Shown piece after piece: positions 1,195 to 18,689 of a DNA stretch of 30,581 bases; position 1 is the first letter of the stretch, and the number at the start of each line of letters is the position of its first letter. A model generated the notes under the pieces. It did no database searches, had not been told where the DNA came from, and worked only from the letters and a program-made list of their open reading frames with translations. The DNA is from a virus. The stretch covers positions 1 through 30,581 of the IMG/VR virus record IMGVR_UViG_3300046001_000450. One strand, given 5' to 3'. The translations under genes were made by a program, and so were the position numbers.

Positions 1195-2188
1195 GACAAG
1201 AGCGATAGAACTAGACGAGGCTAGGAAGGCTCGAATCCTAAAGTCAGAGAGTATTGACGTTGAGAAGTATCTACATTCTAACGACGTAACGATACGGGTT
1301 AAGAAGGCTTCTGATTGGCTAGACTCCATCAAAGAGGCTTACCTATCGGAAACGGTAGAGAAGAAAGTCGTTATGCCTTGGACTAAGACGCATGATTCTT
1401 TTGCCTATCGTGAGGGTGAAGTAACTGTCTACGCAGGTTCTAACGGTGGTGGTAAGTCGCTTATCACGGGTCAGATAGCGTTGAGTCTGGTTAAGCAGGG
1501 TCAGTCAGTCTGCATAGCGTCGTTTGAGATGAAGCCTGAACGGACGTTACAGAGGATGCTTAGACAGTTCTCCGGGGAATCGTTGGATGATCCGTTGACT
1601 CACGACAGGGCAGGATTTATCACGAAGATGGTTGACCGGATGGACAAGTTTCTATCCGACAAGATGTACCTTTACGACCAGCAGGGGACTACTACGCCGG
1701 AGAAGGTGATTGCTATGTCGAGATATTGCGCTGTAGAGCTAAAGGTCAAGCACATCGTTATCGACAGCCTGATGAAGTGCGTCAAGAACGAGGATGACTT
1801 CAACGGTCAGAAGTCGTTTATCGACGAGCTAACGGCTTTGGCTAGGGATCACAACGTACACATCCACCTAGTCCACCATATCAGGAAGCAGCAGACGGAC
1901 GAGACACAGCCGAACAAGAACGACCTCAAAGGGTCAGGGAGTATCTCGGATCAGGTGGATAACGTCTTTTTGGTTTGGAGAAATAAGAAAAAAGAAAACC
2001 AGAAGAACCGGGGTGAAGTGATAGACGAGACTCAGCCAGATACCTTCCTAATGTGCGAGAAGCAGAGGAACGGGGATGGTACTGAGTGGTACGGACTCTG
2101 GTACGACAGCCTAAGTCAGCAGTTTGTTGAGAGGATAGGGGCGAGAATTGACTTTGATAATAAGGGATCATTTTCGGGGGTAATGTGA
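1184..2188 (+). CDS. DnaB/Twinkle-type replicative DNA helicase (RecA-fold core only)
   Basis: Likely hexameric 5'-3' helicase for phage replication. Using the ATG at 1184 it has 334 residues. The motifs are Walker A AGSNGGGKS (about 84-92), the DnaB-like catalytic-Glu segment SFEMKPE (113-119), Walker B HIVIDSL (190-196), HLVHHIRK (228-235), and the arginine-finger region GSGSISDQVDNVFLVWRN. About 65 residues precede the core, so there is no room for a primase or a full DnaB N-terminal domain, and no primase is visible in the window. An in-frame ATG at 1157 exists, but 1184 sits 7 bases after AAGGAGA and is preferred. The last two codons (ATG TGA) overlap both following starts. Confidence 0.88.
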   Translation: MSLETRAIELDEARKARILKSESIDVEKYLHSNDVTIRVKKASDWLDSIKEAYLSETVEKKVVMPWTKTHDSFAYREGEVTVYAGSNGGGKSLITGQIALSLVKQGQSVCIASFEMKPERTLQRMLRQFSGESLDDPLTHDRAGFITKMVDRMDKFLSDKMYLYDQQGTTTPEKVIAMSRYCAVELKVKHIVIDSLMKCVKNEDDFNGQKSFIDELTALARDHNVHIHLVHHIRKQQTDETQPNKNDLKGSGSISDQVDNVFLVWRNKKKENQKNRGEVIDETQPDTFLMCEKQRNGDGTEWYGLWYDSLSQQFVERIGARIDFDNKGSFSGVM

Positions 2189-2994
2189 ATGAGTTGGCTC
2201 TTTTCGCGGGTGCTGGTGGAGGAATACTTGGGGGAAAGTTGCTCGGATGGAGAACCGTCTGTGCAGTTGAATGGGAACCCTACCCAGCTAGCGTACTTGT
2301 CGCAAGACAAAATGACGGACTTCTCCCGGCTTTCCCGATTTGGGATGACGTTCAAACCTTTGACGGAAAACCGTGGCGAGGAATTGTTGACGTTGTATCT
2401 GGCGGGTTTCCATGCCAAGACATCAGTTCAGCCGGAAAAGGCGCAGGAATTGATGGAGAACGATCTGGGATGTGGCGAGAAATGGCGAGGATCATTCACG
2501 AAGTACGACCTAGATTCGCGTTCGTGGAAAACTCACCAATGCTCACTAGTCGGGGACTTGGAACCGTTCTTGGAGACTTGGCCTCGATGGGGTTTGATGC
2601 GAAATGGGGAGTGTTGGGAGCAGCCGACGTTGGAGCAAACCATCAGAGGGACAGAATCTGGATCGTTGCAAAAAATGTGGTCGACTCCAATAGCACAAGA
2701 TGCAAAACACAGTGGATACGCGAAAACAGGACCGGGGAAAGCGAACAAATTGAGTTACGAAGTAATAAAATTTCCGACTCCAACGTGTCACAACAGCAAG
2801 GAGGAAGCGTTCCCATCGGAGTACAACAGAAAGACTCCTTCGCTAGCGACTCATGCTGGTGGGAAACTGAACCCAACGTGGGTAGAGTGGCTGATGGGGT
2901 GGCCTCTAGAGTGGACAGACTTAAAGCCATTGGAAACGGACAAGTCCCATTATGTGCAGCAGAAGCATGGAGAATCCTAAGTGGAGGAGCATAG
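2185..2994 (+). CDS. DNA cytosine-C5 methyltransferase
   Basis: Predicted to transfer a methyl group from SAM to cytosine C5 in DNA, probably protecting phage DNA from host restriction. Motifs over 269 residues: I (LFAGAGGG, 6-13), IV with nucleophile (GFPCQDIS, Cys77), VI (VENSP, 114-118, ENS instead of the commoner ENV), VIII (HQRDRIWIVA, 153-162) and X (RLKAIGNGQVP, 245-255). The target-recognition stretch between VIII and X is short, so the enzyme is compact. The only usable start is GTG at 2185, overlapping the helicase stop; a TAA lies just upstream in frame. Almost the whole gene is shared with a second open frame (2189-2980). Target sequence cannot be predicted. Confidence 0.88.
   Translation: MNELALFAGAGGGILGGKLLGWRTVCAVEWEPYPASVLVARQNDGLLPAFPIWDDVQTFDGKPWRGIVDVVSGGFPCQDISSAGKGAGIDGERSGMWREMARIIHEVRPRFAFVENSPMLTSRGLGTVLGDLASMGFDAKWGVLGAADVGANHQRDRIWIVAKNVVDSNSTRCKTQWIRENRTGESEQIELRSNKISDSNVSQQQGGSVPIGVQQKDSFASDSCWWETEPNVGRVADGVASRVDRLKAIGNGQVPLCAAEAWRILSGGA
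2189..2980 (+). CDS. Second protein encoded in the +1 frame of the methyltransferase gene (263 aa)
   Basis: An ATG at 2189, 8 bases after a GGGGG run, opens a 263-codon frame lying entirely inside the C5-methyltransferase gene. It has its own ordered motifs: FHAKTS (74-79, same DNA as PCQDIS), KYDLDSRSWKT (105-115), ETWPRWGLMRNGECWEQP (129-146), two related blocks WSTPIAQDAK (164-173) and FPTPTCHNSK (195-204), LNPTWVEWLMGWP (227-239) and EWTDLKPL (241-248, same DNA as the GNGQ region). I recall the same motif series in phage and metagenome hypothetical proteins, so this is probably a real protein family. No function is known to me. The alternative is a long shadow frame kept open by the methyltransferase sequence. 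Confidence 0.6.
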   Translation: MSWLFSRVLVEEYLGESCSDGEPSVQLNGNPTQLAYLSQDKMTDFSRLSRFGMTFKPLTENRGEELLTLYLAGFHAKTSVQPEKAQELMENDLGCGEKWRGSFTKYDLDSRSWKTHQCSLVGDLEPFLETWPRWGLMRNGECWEQPTLEQTIRGTESGSLQKMWSTPIAQDAKHSGYAKTGPGKANKLSYEVIKFPTPTCHNSKEEAFPSEYNRKTPSLATHAGGKLNPTWVEWLMGWPLEWTDLKPLETDKSHYVQQKHGES

Positions 2995-5553: not shown

Positions 5554-5824
5554 GGGTAAGAACAAGGCTAGCGGTCTGAATGAAAAGGGTCGAAAGTCTT
5601 ATGAGGCAGCAAATCCCGGTTCCGACCTAAAGGCTCCAGTCAAATCAGGGGACAACCCAAGAAGGGCTAGCTTTTTAGCCCGTATGTCAGGTATGCCCGG
5701 AGCAGAGTATAAAAATGGTGAGCCTACTCGTTTGCTACTATCTTTACGGGCATGGGGAGCTAGTTCTAAGGCTGATGCTAAGGCTAAAGCAGCTGCAATA
5801 TCCGCAAGAAACAAGAAGAAATGA
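5522..5824 (+). CDS. DUF6321-like basic protein (100 aa)
   Basis: Motifs in order: AWTRTEGKNKASGLNEKGRKSY, NPGSDLKAPV, RRASFLARMSGMPG, LSLRAWGASSKADAKAKA, ending in a Lys run. This is the pattern I recall for DUF6321, found in many short-tailed phages near packaging genes. No enzyme motif is visible; the high Lys/Arg content and the Gly-rich first half suggest DNA binding or a virion-associated role. The start ATG lies inside the previous gene. It is the third strongly basic small protein in this 1.1-kb cluster. Confidence 0.8.
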   Translation: MKKTPAWTRTEGKNKASGLNEKGRKSYEAANPGSDLKAPVKSGDNPRRASFLARMSGMPGAEYKNGEPTRLLLSLRAWGASSKADAKAKAAAISARNKKK

Positions 5825-6342
5825 GCCATCAGAGCCAGCTAGACTTTGTTGCTAGCGTGAAAAAACAATTCCCACAGTATTTCTTTGAGTCCAAGGTCTT
5901 AGAGGTAGGAAGTCTGGACATCAACGGTTCCATCCGTCAATTCTTTGTAGGCTGCGATTATGTTGGGGTTGATCTTGGCGAGGGACGAGGGGTTGATGTG
6001 GTGGCTAGGGGTGAGGAACTGGACTACCCTGACAATAGTTTTGACGTTGTTGCTAGCTGCGAGTGCTTTGAGCATAACCCTGAGTGGATAAAGACCTTTA
6101 ATAATATGGTCAGGATGGCTTCTGGGCTGGTTTTCTTTAGCTGTGCTACTACGGGTAGGGCTGAACATGGAACGAGGCGTACAAGCCCGGATGACGCGCC
6201 ATTTTGCGGGGATTATTACCGGAACCTAACGGAGCAGGACTTTAGGGAAAACTGCGATCTGAGTAAGTTTGAAGTATATGAATTTATAACTAGTTATAAC
6301 CCAGCAGACTTATACTTTTGGGCGATATGCAAGCAATCGTAA
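5821..6342 (+). CDS. SAM-dependent methyltransferase, class I (Methyltransf_11 type)
   Basis: The 173-residue product has a Rossmann-type SAM site: motif I VLEVGS (26-31), the acidic second-strand end YVGVDLGEG (47-55), and DNSFDVVASCECFEH (71-85), the usual post-motif segment of Methyltransf_11 enzymes. The substrate is not visible. The overlapping downstream glycosyltransferase suggests modification of a sugar or surface component rather than DNA, but this is inference. ATG overlaps the previous stop by ATGA. Length is typical of compact phage versions. Confidence 0.82.
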   Translation: MSHQSQLDFVASVKKQFPQYFFESKVLEVGSLDINGSIRQFFVGCDYVGVDLGEGRGVDVVARGEELDYPDNSFDVVASCECFEHNPEWIKTFNNMVRMASGLVFFSCATTGRAEHGTRRTSPDDAPFCGDYYRNLTEQDFRENCDLSKFEVYEFITSYNPADLYFWAICKQS

Positions 6343-7034
6343 TCTGTACGGTGAACAATTGCGGCATAACGGTGCTGCTGGAGTCTATTCGTTGCTATGG
6401 TGACAAGTTACCCGTGTACTTATGTAGTAATAATCTTGGACTCTGGGCAAGAGCAAGAGAGATCACAGAAAACCTTATCTACCGACCCAATCCTGCTACC
6501 AATTTCGGAGATGCTTATAACGCAGCCGTCGATTACGCCTTTGAGCATGGCAAGTTTGACTCATTGATTTTAGCTAACGATGATGTGGTTCTTAATCCAG
6601 ATACGCTATCGTTAATGCGGGAAGATGCGGGGATTCTGGAGTCTCGTGGCGTGAAATACGGATTCTTAGGCGCAAGGTCGGACTATGTATTGCCGGATCA
6701 GAACATCAGGTTTCCGGTAGACGGGGACAGAAGGGCAGGATTGAAGTGGGAAAGTGAGCATCAGATTAAGATTACTCCGGTAATTGCGCCTATCTGGGCA
6801 AGTATCAGCCGGGAAGCGTGGGGAGTAGCTAAGTTCCCGAGTACTAATTGGTATTCAGATAATATAATATGCCATGACTTGAACGTGGCGGGTTATCAGC
6901 ATTTCGTCAGCAGGGCTTATGTGCATCATGCAGGAAGCCAGACGGTAGGTGTTGATTTCAAGAAATGTCACGAAGAACCGAGGGCGTGGATATTGAAACA
7001 TCGTCCCGATATGTACGAAGCGATATACGCATGA
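6327..7034 (+). CDS. Glycosyltransferase-like protein (GT-A fold, family 2-like)
   Basis: The 235-residue product starts with a strand MQAIVICTVN and has NFGDAYNAAVDYAF, then SLILANDDVVLNPD, where NDD (84-86) takes the place of the metal/nucleotide-sugar DxD motif. Near the C-terminus HHAGSQTVG recalls the conserved His of GT-A enzymes. It probably transfers a sugar, from an unknown donor to an unknown acceptor (virion protein, DNA base or host surface). ATG at 6327 is preferred to an upstream in-frame TTG at 6318. It overlaps the methyltransferase gene and precedes the terminase genes. Confidence 0.72.
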   Translation: MQAIVICTVNNCGITVLLESIRCYGDKLPVYLCSNNLGLWARAREITENLIYRPNPATNFGDAYNAAVDYAFEHGKFDSLILANDDVVLNPDTLSLMREDAGILESRGVKYGFLGARSDYVLPDQNIRFPVDGDRRAGLKWESEHQIKITPVIAPIWASISREAWGVAKFPSTNWYSDNIICHDLNVAGYQHFVSRAYVHHAGSQTVGVDFKKCHEEPRAWILKHRPDMYEAIYA

Positions 7035-11824: not shown

Positions 11825-12761
11825 AGACGTAGGTGGTGCAGCTAACGCTATCTTGGGATTGATGGGCAATGAGGAAGGCTCCGAACAGGAACAACCTGAA
11901 TCACAGTCCGAGTCCAACGATAGCGAGGCCGAATCCGAATACATTGAGGCGCAAGCTGAAGATGAGTCGGAGGTAGAACAAGATGAAGGTGAGGATGAGC
12001 AAGAGGAACCCGCTAAATACCGCGTTAAAGCCGCTGGTGAAGAACGTGAGGTAACCCTTGATGAGCTTATCAAATCTTATCAACTTGGCACAGACTATAC
12101 GAAGAAATCGCAAGCTGTAGCTGAAGAACGCAAGGTTGTAGAAGCAGAACGCCAGCGTATCGAGGAAGCTAGGTATCTCCGCGACCAATATGCGGAACGG
12201 TTGCAGGTAATTGAGCAGATGCTTAACCAGCAGCCGGAAACTGAGAATCTGGACTATCTGAAGGAAACCGATCCAATCGGTTACGCAGTTAAGGTCGCAG
12301 AATTGTCTCAGCGGGAGAAGCAGTTAGCCCAAGTTCGAGCAGAACAGGCTAGGATTGCCGATCAGCAGCAGAGGGAGCAGCAGGAGCAACTTGGTCAGGT
12401 AGTACAGGCTGAGTCTCGTAAGCTGGCAGAGGTTATCCCTGAGTATGCTGACCCGCAGAAGGGCGAAACATTACGTCGTGAACTCCGTGAATTCGGACTC
12501 AAGGCGGGATTCTCAGATCAGGAATTAGCGAATGTTTATGATTCGCGGGCAGTATTAACGCTGTACAAGGCGATGCAGTACGACAAGTTACAGTCTGCAA
12601 AGCCGGGAATCACGAAGAAGGTTAATGAGGCTCCAAAGGTAATTAAGTCTGGAGTTTCACAGCCCCGTGATAGCAGCGACGAGATGAAGAAACTTAAGGC
12701 TAGGGCAAAGCAGACCGGAAGGGTCGCTGATGCCGCTAAAGCATTTGAACGATTTTTATGA
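11778..12761 (+). CDS. Capsid scaffolding protein
   Basis: The internal scaffold shapes the procapsid and leaves before or during packaging. The 327-residue product has no fold motif, but its composition is typical: a very acidic Glu/Ser/Gln-rich N-terminal third, YRVKAAGEEREVTLDEL, and a long Gln/Glu/Arg coiled coil (about 110-230). Then come HxxE-free helices and a basic C-terminal end (DEMKKLKARAKQTGRVADAAKAFE) that would bind the capsid shell. It sits immediately before the major capsid gene. Its start lies within a nested set of inverted repeats. P22 scaffold is known to regulate its own synthesis after transcription, so autoregulation is a fair hypothesis. Confidence 0.85.
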   Translation: MSDTGSMTPESGNTQLDVGGAANAILGLMGNEEGSEQEQPESQSESNDSEAESEYIEAQAEDESEVEQDEGEDEQEEPAKYRVKAAGEEREVTLDELIKSYQLGTDYTKKSQAVAEERKVVEAERQRIEEARYLRDQYAERLQVIEQMLNQQPETENLDYLKETDPIGYAVKVAELSQREKQLAQVRAEQARIADQQQREQQEQLGQVVQAESRKLAEVIPEYADPQKGETLRRELREFGLKAGFSDQELANVYDSRAVLTLYKAMQYDKLQSAKPGITKKVNEAPKVIKSGVSQPRDSSDEMKKLKARAKQTGRVADAAKAFERFL

Positions 12762-12772
12762 GGAATTAAATC

Positions 12773-13717
12773 ATGCCTACATTTACAGCACATTCCGCTA
12801 TCGGTCAGCGGGAAGATTTGACCGACATCATCTATGACATTTCGCCAACGGAAACGCCGTTTATGTCTTCGATTGGCAAGACCAAAGCTACTGCCGTTTA
12901 TCATGAGTGGCAGACTGACTCTCTGGCTGCTGCTACTACTGCTAACGCTGCGATTGAAGGTGCTGACGCTACATCGGCAACTCTGGCTCCTACCGTTCGT
13001 CTTGGTAACTACACCCAGATCATCCAGAAGACCGTTCAGGTTTCGGGTACTTTGGACACAGTAAACAAGGCTGGTCGTAAGTCGGAAAAGGCTTATCAGT
13101 TGGCTAAGGCTTCTGCTGAACTGAAGCGCGATCTGGAAACTATCCTGTTGGCTAACCAAGGTCGTTCGGCTGGTACATCGACTGTTGCTCGTAAGTTGGG
13201 TTCGATCCTGTCGTGGATCAAGACTAACTCGGACGTTGGTTCGGGCGGTGCTGATCCAGCAACTATCGGCGTATCGACTCGTACTGATGGCACTCAGCGT
13301 ACCTTCACCGAGGCTCTGCTGAAGACTGTTGTTTCTGAGGTTTATGTCTCCGGTGGTTCGCCGAAGATTCTGATGGTTGGCGCTGCTGGTAAGCAGAAGG
13401 TATCGTCGTTTGCTGGTATCGCTGCACAGCGTTACATGGCTCCCGGCAATACTCCGACCACCATTATCGGTGCGGCTGACGTTTATATGTCGGATTTTGG
13501 CACGATGTCGGTTGTTCCTAACCGCTTCATGCGTGTTCGTGACGCTTTGGTTCTCGATCCTGAGTACGCAGCACTTGCTTATCTCCGTCCATTCCAGACT
13601 AATGATCTGGCTAAGACTGGTGATAGCGAGAATACTCAACTCTTGGCTGAAGTTACTCTGGAAGTCAAGAACGAGGCTGCTCATGGCATAATTGCGGATC
13701 TGGACATGGCTCTATAA
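12773..13717 (+). CDS. Major capsid protein (DUF5309 / SU10-type HK97 fold)
   Basis: The 314-residue protein builds the icosahedral shell. The start TAHSAIGQREDLTDIIYDISPTETPF, split by SSIGKTKA, and the block NYTQIIQKTVQVSGT are hallmarks of the DUF5309/SU10 major capsid family. The remainder alternates Ala/Gly/Thr-rich strands, as in HK97-fold proteins, with no long N-terminal delta domain, in line with a separate scaffold gene. GAGGAA at 12760-12765 gives a good ribosome site. Codon use is strongly biased towards GGT/GCT/CTG, as expected for the most highly made protein in the particle. Confidence 0.93.
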   Translation: MPTFTAHSAIGQREDLTDIIYDISPTETPFMSSIGKTKATAVYHEWQTDSLAAATTANAAIEGADATSATLAPTVRLGNYTQIIQKTVQVSGTLDTVNKAGRKSEKAYQLAKASAELKRDLETILLANQGRSAGTSTVARKLGSILSWIKTNSDVGSGGADPATIGVSTRTDGTQRTFTEALLKTVVSEVYVSGGSPKILMVGAAGKQKVSSFAGIAAQRYMAPGNTPTTIIGAADVYMSDFGTMSVVPNRFMRVRDALVLDPEYAALAYLRPFQTNDLAKTGDSENTQLLAEVTLEVKNEAAHGIIADLDMAL

Positions 13718-16478: not shown

Positions 16479-18689
16479 ATGGCAGATCGCTATTGGGTTG
16501 GTGGAACAGGTACTTGGAATAGTACCAGCACGACTAACTGGTCAGACTCATCTGGCGGCGCTACAGGGGCATCAGTTCCAACGGCTGCTGATAACGTATT
16601 CTTTGATGCCAACTCAAACACAGGTACGGGGGCTTTTACGGTCACGATGGCAAACTCTCCAAGGGTTTGCAACGACATCACAATCAGCGGTCTTGATGGA
16701 ACAATGACCCTAGCAGGGTCAAACATTGGATTGACTGTTAGCGGTAACTTATCTTTCCCTGCGACAAACTTTACTCGTACATATACCGGCACAACTACGT
16801 TTAACGCTACGACTACTGGCAAGACAATAACGACTAACGGTGTGGCTTTTGGTGGGCCTGTTGCATTTGATGGTGTTGGAGGTGCTTGGGCATTACAAGA
16901 TGCAATGTCAGTAGGCTCTAGCGCAACCACAACAACATTAACAAACGGTACGTTAGACCTAAATAATCAGACGCTGTCAACTGGACGATTTGCATCAAAT
17001 AACTCAAACACAAGAACTATTGCGTTTGGTACTGGGAACATCACTTGTTTTGGTACAGGTGCAGTTTGGACTACGGCAACCGTAACCGGATTAACTACGA
17101 CTGGAACACAAGTTGTAAACGTAACTTCTACTGGTTCCACGGCTATATCATTTACTCCGGGGCAATTATCTGAAGCTAACTCTATCAGTTTTAATTTTAC
17201 TGGTGGAACGTATGCGCTTAGTTGGAGTGGATCTTCTAGCACCGTAAGAAGCGTAAATTTTACGGGGTATGCTGGAACTTTAGGTGAAGTTTTAATTACA
17301 ACACTATACGGAAATTTAACATTTTCTACGGGGATGTCATTAACAGCAAGTACATTTACTTGGTCATTCCGCGCAACAAGTGGAACGCAGTTAATAACAA
17401 CGAACGGAAAAACGTTAGATTTTCCTGTTACGTTCAACGGTGTAGGCGGCACGTTTAGGCTTGAAGACGCAATGACTCTTGGTTCTACGCGAGCCATGAC
17501 ATTGACAAATGGTACATTGAACCTAAATGGCAAAACTTGCACAGTGGGGACAAGATTTGTAACGGCTGCTGGTACTAAAAATCTTACCTTTAACGGTGGC
17601 ACATTAGTTTGTCCTGATCCTAACGCAACATCATTTAATAACATTAGCCCAACTAACTTCACCACGACAGCAGGTACTGGCACAGGCACGATCTCAATGA
17701 CGGCGGCAACTGCCAAAACGTTTGTTGGTAATGGGTCTACGTATAACTGCACACTAAACCAAGGTGGTGCGGGAACGCTGACGATTACTGGTGCAAATAC
17801 GTTCAACAACATTACGAATACTAACGCTACAGCCAGCCAGATTACGTTTCCTGCTAGTACAACAACGACGGTTAATGCGTTTGCATTGTCTGGATCGTCA
17901 GGCAATTTGGTTTCAATCCGTAGCTCAACGCCGGGAACTCGATTTACGTTATCCGATGCGTCTGGTACGGTGTCTGTGTCGTTCCTAGACATCCAAGACA
18001 GTAACGCTACAGGTGGCGCTACTTGGGAAGCGTTTACAACTAATGGAAACGTAGATTCTGGGAATAACCTTGGTTGGGCATTTGCTGTTCCTTATGTTGA
18101 TGCGATTGCTTATGTAAATGCTAATGCTGCTGTGACTTCAGCGGCTTCAGTATTAAAGTTTGGAAATGCAAGTATTGACGGTATTGCAACAGTTTCTTGC
18201 ATTGGAAATGAAATATTATTAGGGCAAGCAAGTATTAACGGTGTTGCAACTGTTAATGCTAACGGAATTGCCATCATAAGCGGCATTGGCAGTATTACTG
18301 GAAATGCAACATTATCTGCTGATGCTTACAAAGTTATTAGCTTTTCTGGAAGTATTACTGGAGATGCGTCAGTAACGGCAGACGCAATTCGAGTTAGGAC
18401 TGTTAGCGGTAGCGTTTTAGGTGAGGCTACTGTATCTGGACTAGGTAATATTACAGCTAGCGGCATTGGCCTAATCGAAGGGCTTGCGACTGTAAATGCT
18501 TACGGTAACGCAACTTTCTTTAATGCGCCTACAATTACAGGAAATGCAACTTTGTTAGCTGATGGTCAGATTATTGGCGAGGAATGGTCTGATGATGCCA
18601 CAACAGCAACATCGTGGGGAACTGTAACAACGACATCAAGTGTGTGGACAGCGGGTACGCCTACAGATAGTGATTGGTTAAGACAATGA
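16479..18689 (+). CDS. Beta-rich tail fibre/adhesin with tandem repeats (736 aa)
   Basis: Probable host-binding fibre or spike. The N-terminus is YWVGGTGTWNSTSTTNWS followed by VPTAADNVFFDA, a motif of large beta-helical adhesins. Two internally similar modules carry ITTNG, FxGVGGxxxLxDAM and TLTNGTLxLN (about residues 112-165 and 304-355), so a unit was duplicated. From residue about 562 to 701, seven exact 20-residue repeats follow (G-x-(I/L)-x-G-x-A-(T/S)-V-x-A). The end, SWGTVTTTSSVW and DWLRQ, may be a separate trimerising or binding tip. Nearly all Thr/Ser/Gly/Asn. It ends in ATGA overlap with the next gene. Confidence 0.85.
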   Translation: MADRYWVGGTGTWNSTSTTNWSDSSGGATGASVPTAADNVFFDANSNTGTGAFTVTMANSPRVCNDITISGLDGTMTLAGSNIGLTVSGNLSFPATNFTRTYTGTTTFNATTTGKTITTNGVAFGGPVAFDGVGGAWALQDAMSVGSSATTTTLTNGTLDLNNQTLSTGRFASNNSNTRTIAFGTGNITCFGTGAVWTTATVTGLTTTGTQVVNVTSTGSTAISFTPGQLSEANSISFNFTGGTYALSWSGSSSTVRSVNFTGYAGTLGEVLITTLYGNLTFSTGMSLTASTFTWSFRATSGTQLITTNGKTLDFPVTFNGVGGTFRLEDAMTLGSTRAMTLTNGTLNLNGKTCTVGTRFVTAAGTKNLTFNGGTLVCPDPNATSFNNISPTNFTTTAGTGTGTISMTAATAKTFVGNGSTYNCTLNQGGAGTLTITGANTFNNITNTNATASQITFPASTTTTVNAFALSGSSGNLVSIRSSTPGTRFTLSDASGTVSVSFLDIQDSNATGGATWEAFTTNGNVDSGNNLGWAFAVPYVDAIAYVNANAAVTSAASVLKFGNASIDGIATVSCIGNEILLGQASINGVATVNANGIAIISGIGSITGNATLSADAYKVISFSGSITGDASVTADAIRVRTVSGSVLGEATVSGLGNITASGIGLIEGLATVNAYGNATFFNAPTITGNATLLADGQIIGEEWSDDATTATSWGTVTTTSSVWTAGTPTDSDWLRQ
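18162..18581 (+). repeat. Seven 60-bp tandem repeats inside the fibre gene
   Basis: Units start at 18162, 18222, 18282, 18342, 18402, 18462 and 18522, each exactly 60 bases. The DNA copies have diverged (mostly shared: GG-A-GCA-AGTATT-A-CGG-GC-AC-GT patterns), but the encoded 20-residue pattern is kept: S/T-I-x-G-x-A-T-V-x-A. The regular spacing predicts one beta-solenoid turn per repeat. Confidence 0.85.

Follow-up and report, generated by a model that had tools for sequence, protein, structure and literature searches.

We report that a cytosine methyltransferase gene in the virus record IMGVR_UViG_3300046001_000450 of IMG/VR very probably encodes, in two overlapping reading frames, both polypeptides of a C5-cytosine DNA methyltransferase. 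The whole record, 30,581 bases in length, is referred to below as the window. The product of frame 0, named alpha here, would be responsible for catalysis, and that of the +1 frame, named beta, for target recognition and motif IX; in all likelihood beta is the methylase's second subunit, the one that bears its specificity. Our confidence derives from the register of the two frames among relatives and from selection, which support this reading, and not from the structural model of a relative, L311, considered below.

In the proposed arrangement, alpha would supply the S-adenosylmethionine-binding and catalytic motifs I–VIII together with the closing motif X. Beta, started four bases later, would supply the target-recognition region, which in the window consists of two WPTP-type blocks, and motif IX; in an ordinary C5-methyltransferase, this region and motif IX together form the small domain that reads the DNA. 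Beta would be translated from its own ATG off a common ribosome-binding site, and the two chains would bind and assemble into one enzyme which would methylate the phage DNA, probably protecting it from restriction by the host. Beta's first ~155 residues would be mostly passenger, kept open so that ribosomes reach the useful part.

Open second frame, register and selection

Chance opening of the +1 frame is ruled out by codon shuffles, by relatives found through the methylase, and by methylases of other types. Synonymous shuffling of the alpha codons of this gene left a mean of 7.2 stops in the +1 frame. The real gene has two, one at each border (the TGA at 2186, upstream, and the stop of beta itself at 2978), and one stop or fewer occurred in 0.025% of 20,000 shuffles. 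A shuffle across all loci is confined to the overlap of two open frames, where there are zero stops by construction, and is not used as evidence. Searches of viral contigs returned at least 599 confirmed stretches each with beta and with alpha, and the best 80 loci were kept from each search. The 80 loci retrieved with alpha as the only query, termed methylase-found below, include some duplicates and one locus identical to the window; all have a +1 frame open from alpha codon 5 or earlier. Across alpha codons 3–155, their 76 distinct sequences contain no stop in +1, against 2.69 per locus expected by shuffling; these sequences are related and so do not represent 76 independent cases. Twelve loci with methylases of other types were tried, three of which were not recognised by the script. 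The nine ORFs (open reading frames) recovered carry 4–34 stops in the +1 frame and none is fully open; the lowest count belongs to L402, the core of which was probably mis-called, and L400, with 8 stops, has a 149-codon opening. On the strength of these sequence comparisons, we regard the double coding of the stretch as confirmed.

Both proteins occur in the same register in all 167 loci of a set comprising the window, the 80 loci from each search and six phage records picked from a beta search. The fair part of this test is the methylase-found loci, in 80 of 80 of which beta lies in +1. Of 318 loci, many of which were found via beta and hence provide no independent test of register, 280 have motif IX in +1 with motif X in frame 0. 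The same holds for 74 of the 79 loci recovered by a beta-profile scan of bacterial genomes, which extend from Acinetobacter and Pseudomonas to metagenome-assembled genomes of Planctomycetota and Verrucomicrobia. Overall, 397 loci were gathered, 305 of them distinct, and in 235 of the distinct loci the genes are nested and both frames intact, by which we mean that the first block of alpha and motif X share one ORF, as do the middle block of beta and motif IX. Others are nested with alpha intact and the middle block of beta not found (18), have motif IX in +1 and motif X not found (19), are split (8) or incomplete (6), or lie in other registers, some of them resembling insertions or deletions (10). 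A broken +1 frame beside an intact methylase, which the original prediction had named as the pattern that would speak against it, is rare (2 of 305 distinct loci, versus 7 with the reverse). The search which it had proposed for a +1 protein lacking the methylase yielded none among the 397 loci except L389 and L392, both of which start at contig ends. In L025 and L030 (one stop each) and L088 (two stops) the alpha frame is interrupted and beta is open, reflecting either decay of alpha or sequencing errors.

Among 50,697 phage records, tblastn matched beta in 180 (E 1e-3) and alpha in 1329 (E 1e-5), so that many phage C5-methylases are probably of other types. Beta matched nine of 72,556 plasmid records, and the alpha of a Klebsiella phage, used as query, matched four of 5426 Escherichia coli genomes, with ~35% of the query covered in each. 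Many of the matches to the Pfam family PF00145 in 18 bacterial genomes are ~320 positions long, and many others end near 163–172, at motif VIII; match length may therefore serve to flag nested methylases.

Selection was gauged by counting substitutions according to their effect on each frame (N, nonsynonymous; S, synonymous), using a frame-blind nucleotide alignment of four sets with at most 500 pairs each, the second of which shares contigs with the first. Earlier runs, including the control, were aligned on alpha and took in only sequences open in both frames; a sliding window is blurred by misalignment in the recognition region. Upstream of motif VIII, the ratios over the four sets are 0.25–0.38 for alpha and 0.66–0.93 for beta. 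In the target-recognition region, by contrast, beta dNN/dNS is 0.16, 0.18, 0.24 and 0.15, and alpha dNN/dSN is 1.52, 2.46, 0.92 and 1.09. The close set has values of 0.25 (alpha) and 0.93 (beta) before motif VIII, and both frames are held at motifs IX/X (0.23 and 0.26). The helicase was rejected as a control gene since it has a relative in only 7 of 157 loci, and flanking genes were taken instead; 94 flanking-gene pairs read in +1 gave a dNN/dNS of 0.92 [0.80–1.05]. When each sequence was used once, in non-overlapping pairs that are not strictly phylogenetically independent, alpha-only change had a higher rate than beta-only change in 2 of 123 pairs upstream of motif VIII; the corresponding counts are 82 of 83 pairs for the target-recognition region and 68 of 123 for IX/X. 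The earlier suggestion that selection in the target-recognition part is governed mainly by the second frame is thus borne out, and, as judged from these substitution patterns, selection changes frame along the gene, at motif VIII.

The start of beta is likewise maintained. The aligned first residue is ATG in all 163 loci aligned from residue 1, in 150 of which it lies four bases after the place of the alpha start and in 13 elsewhere, and the matching alpha codon is ATG in 77, GTG in 27, TTG in 17 and no start in 42. Judged by fixed position, the beta ATG is present in 77 of 80 methylase-found loci. The second codon of alpha, for asparagine, is AAT in 73 of 73 cases, versus 91 AAT to 14 AAC at other asparagine codons before G. 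The spacing from a Shine-Dalgarno motif to the beta ATG has its mode at 8 bases, and hence at 4 to alpha (24 of the 56 contexts with a motif, from 66 contexts in total), a spacing which, from the sequence, suits beta. The simplest reading is that one ribosome-binding site would feed two starts and that the first half of beta is a passenger. Beta opens later elsewhere, at a median alpha codon of 59 in a Paenibacillus-like set and of 108 in an Avle17-like set, which fits a dispensable first half. In the window, the helicase stop TGA adjoins the beta ATG in the same frame (2186–2189), and re-initiation after the helicase could also feed beta.

Identity of the second product and competing explanations

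Alpha matches PF00145 with 107.7 bits (cut-off 22) over profile positions 4–187 of 324 only, and this match ends at motif VIII; motif IX is absent and motif X, GNGQVP, is present further on, so that the complete set of the family (I–VIII, target-recognition region, IX and X in one chain) is not found in alpha. It also matches phrog_363 (1.3e-68). Beta has no match in Pfam, and matches phrog_1008, labelled DNA methyltransferase (3.1e-27), as well as PHROG families labelled 'unknown function'. It carries LNPTWVEWLMGWP, which we read as the motif IX that alpha is without.

Split forms of the enzyme help in placing beta. In the mycobacteriophages Avle17 (79/78) and Firecracker (gp6/gp5) and the streptophage Vash (32/33), frame 0 closes directly behind motif VIII, and PTP blocks followed by EWMMG...IGNGV, corresponding to motifs IX and X, are found in the +1 ORF. 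Both genes of each pair are annotated as DNA methylase or methyltransferase. The actinophage methylases cut at motif VIII are L168, L169, L171 and L301–L308; in these, an overlapping second gene holds motifs IX and X in the +1 frame. The ORF of motif IV in L317 also includes motifs IX and X, with the PTP block in another frame. That of L311 holds the PTP blocks, motif IX and the first residues of motif X, which is then cut short; L311 may have arisen from a form resembling L310 through fusion by an indel. As the same block occurs in the split forms and in L317 and L311, the +1 block resembles a C5-methyltransferase's C-terminal half. In four other loci (L179, L186, L268 and L287), the ORF of I–VIII takes in motif IX, whereas motif X reads in a third frame; an indel may have fused the two frames there, and sequencing error is possible.

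A profile of the IX–X region, A4, aligned by hhalign with the nine methylases of other types, gave an E of 0.00088 at a probability of only 23%, on RLTPRECARLMGFP and GNSVV. Eight chains were listed for A4 against PDB, six of which are DNA methyltransferases (DRM type) matched at IX–X with E 1.1–1.5, and a threonine synthase scored equally, at 1.1. Weak as these profile scores are, the matches lie where they would be expected. Queried against solved structures, the beta sequence gave two unrelated weak matches or none, and L317 was matched over its catalytic part only. The model of single-chain L311 has a predicted local distance difference test (pLDDT) score of 56.6, with residues 391–430 at 76–90, and its best structural matches are C5-methyltransferases; residues 1–207 align with HhaI 2uyc (Z 14.6, root-mean-square deviation 3.2, 168 aligned), and some alignments reach residue 438 (HaeIII 1dct, DNMT1 6w8v).

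Between motifs VIII and IX, the 280 distinct beta regions contain 0–7 blocks opening with WPTP or a variant, mostly 1–4 (none in 4 regions, one in 57, two or more in 219). There are 686 such blocks overall, with a median of 33 residues. The beta of the window has two, WSTPIAQDAK and FPTPTCHNSK, which the original prediction had rightly taken to be related: both are instances of a repeat widespread in the family. Block types, as defined by single-linkage clustering that may lump some of them, recur at different positions beside different neighbours, the largest type having 67 neighbour relations. The Bacillus phages SPR, H2 and phi3T possess multispecific C5-methyltransferases with several exchangeable target-recognising units in the variable region. 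Those enzymes are single-chain, whereas the blocks described here lie in an overlapping frame. The analogy suggests that each block may be one target-recognising unit. We put it at slightly less than an even chance that the specificity of this large phage-borne methylase family resides in interchangeable WPTP blocks, in a frame overlapping the catalytic gene, such that beta, in a role like that of HsdS, would be a plug-in specificity subunit and each block would have a target of its own.

Several observations weigh against the two-subunit reading. The Paenibacillus-like set shows no constraint on alpha at IX/X either (0.97). The first ~155 residues of beta have a dNN/dNS of ~0.9 in the two closer sets, like the control, and of 0.66 and 0.79 elsewhere; their dSN/dSS of 0.26–0.36, against 0.73 in the control, points the opposite way, on very few sites. 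Nor is the baseline of these ratios a clean 1, since the empty +2 frame gives 1.25–2.98 in the same regions and 1.66 in the control genes, which makes the baseline frame-dependent. Nine distinct nested loci have one broken frame (7 alpha, 2 beta), in addition to the 10 in other registers. The homology of motif IX is drawn from weak profile scores together with position, and the L311 model says little about this motif because most of its matches cover the catalytic half only. Beta modelled alone is poor (pLDDT 55.7, predicted template modelling score 0.22), with two meaningless structure matches and none useful in PDB; such a model fits a subunit that needs its partner, without demonstrating it.

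Alternative explanations must account for the same evidence. A programmed frameshift, in which alpha ribosomes slip +1 near motif VIII and yield a fused chain of alpha I–VIII, the beta recognition region and motif IX, would mean that no product corresponds to the upstream half of beta. The meeting of the constrained parts of the two frames at motif VIII agrees with this, as do the split actinophage gene pairs overlapping at that motif and the ORFs which unite the halves (L311, L179). A slip would, however, need no open frame over the first 155 codons of beta, where no stop occurs in the 76 sequences; it would leave unaccounted for the conserved beta ATG and its good Shine-Dalgarno spacing, and its product would be without motif X, which stays in frame 0 in most loci. 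We thus consider a frameshift unlikely. The original prediction had seen in the second product an anti-restriction partner or a controller of the methylase, and beta could indeed be a separate overprinted protein with such a task: it has conserved blocks of its own, finds no Pfam match and is similar to some families of 'unknown function'. Yet in split methylases its block recurs as the C-terminal half, with motif X at the end. Alpha has a Pfam match that goes no further than motif VIII and a frame that is unconstrained where a target-recognition region is expected, and among the 397 loci beta occurs without alpha only at the two contig ends noted above. Given its putative motif IX and target-recognition region, and the place of the block in the split forms, a separate role is not the best reading and seems to us quite improbable.

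That beta is not translated, its open frame being a by-product of the conserved motifs and codon use of alpha, draws on the first half of beta, the residues of which change about as the +1 frame of control genes does, and on the shadow similarity between frames expected wherever alpha is conserved. This sits poorly with a target-recognition region in which alpha is free and beta constrained (82 of 83 pairs), with the avoidance of stops in +1, and with the lack of any full opening in the nine methylases of other types; we judge it highly improbable. The two-polypeptide methyltransferase remains the reading that we prefer.

Layout of the locus

The features of the locus are collected in Table 1. 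As originally described, the two frames are on the + strand in +1 register, with starts four bases and stops 14 bases apart, and the ORF coordinates likewise agree with the derivation of PCQDIS (2410–2427) and FHAKTS (2408–2425) from common bases. The same had been claimed for the GNGQ and WTDLKPL regions and needs a small correction: WTDLKPL (2912–2932) overlaps VDRLKAI, and GNGQ (2932–2943) overlaps ETDK, the next residues of the +1 frame.

Table 1. Features of the alpha/beta locus, in window coordinates.
Feature	Position	Strand	Remarks
Shine-Dalgarno-like GGGGG	2176..2180	+	8 bases upstream of beta ATG, 4 of alpha GTG; from sequence
Alpha: predicted C5-cytosine methyltransferase catalytic subunit	2185..2994	+	GTG start, 269 amino acids; PF00145, phrog_363
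Upstream helicase stop codon (TGA)	2186..2188	+	Beta ATG directly after; from sequence
Beta: +1-frame product, putative target-recognition blocks and motif IX	2189..2980	+	ATG start, 263 amino acids; phrog_1008
Alpha motif IV PCQ, predicted catalytic cysteine	2410..2418	+	Overlaps beta FHAKTS
Alpha motif VIII QRDR	2644..2655	+	Selection passes to beta frame beyond
Beta putative target-recognition block 1 (WSTPIAQDAK...)	2678..2770	+	
Beta putative target-recognition block 2 (FPTPTCHNSK...)	2771..2866	+	
Beta putative motif IX block LNPTWVEWLMGWPLEWT	2867..2917	+	
Alpha motif X GNGQVP	2932..2949	+	

Terminase, portal, scaffold and major head genes follow downstream in the window. At 5821–7034, a gene resembling S-adenosylmethionine-dependent methyltransferases (phrog_32762, 8.5e-61) precedes a gene for 238 amino acids with no PHROG match, the two overlapping at 6318–6342. 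Antisense ORFs of 382 and 341 amino acids, neither with a PHROG match, are found at 12536–13684 (-) and 16967–17992 (-), opposite the scaffold and major head genes and a gene for 736 amino acids; both are probably by-products of codon use.

Known systems and implications

C5-methyltransferases of two polypeptides are already known, namely M.AquI and M.EcoHK31I. In M.EcoHK31I, the small gene lies within the large one and is read in a different frame. M.EcoHK31I (YGGCCR) is a two-polypeptide enzyme with motif IX carried by the small polypeptide and a predicted target-recognition domain assigned to the large subunit (PMC3404938); this naturally split enzyme has also been used in engineering (PMC3439449). 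The likeness is that alpha of the window has I–VIII and X and beta the putative motif IX, albeit by weak profile matches. The locus differs from this description in that selection places the target-recognition region in the small +1 product and not in the large polypeptide, and in having an overlap across almost the entire gene and a recognition region made of repeated blocks. By analogy, M.EcoHK31I is the closest precedent for how the locus may work; we do not file the locus as a member of that system because the comparison is with a published description only and the recognition region lies in the other product. M.AquI (CYCGRG) is split within its variable region into two polypeptides (PMC3404938), and its small subunit has IX and X, which fits the split actinophage forms and not the window, where X is in alpha.

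A gene of this kind has been deposited at least once. In the Paenibacillus larvae phage Shelly (NC_041909.1), the depositors' 'g55 internal gene' is a +1-frame beta of this family, with the product name DNA methyltransferase and no further function in the record; it opens at about alpha codon 59, unlike the beta of the window, which opens at the start of alpha. The ShiLan-domain HNH insertions in mycobacteriophage methylases are out-of-frame homing endonuclease insertions in a third frame (PMC11855218). They too place an out-of-frame product inside a phage methylase gene, but the endonuclease is no part of the enzyme. A literature search found no description of the phage family, of a second frame that holds the recognition region or of the blocks, within a coverage that largely leaves out subscription papers and REBASE and so does not prove absence.

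What appears to go beyond the M.EcoHK31I precedent is the near-complete overlap, the selection on the recognition region in the second frame, the reshuffled repeated blocks, and the spread through phages and bacteria. A division of labour is visible in selection, the catalytic half being held by one frame, the recognition half by the other, and IX/X by both in most sets. Of ten nested phage records checked for annotation, nine list one frame only and one lists both, so that many cytosine methylases of phages have probably been entered as half enzymes, and assays of alpha by itself may wrongly score such methylases as inactive. If the blocks are target-recognising units, they could constitute a code from which the methylation targets of phages may be predicted. 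Were the blocks also interchangeable, each with its own target, their shuffling would give rise to new phage methylation patterns, the alpha frame beneath being free to change as a spacer.

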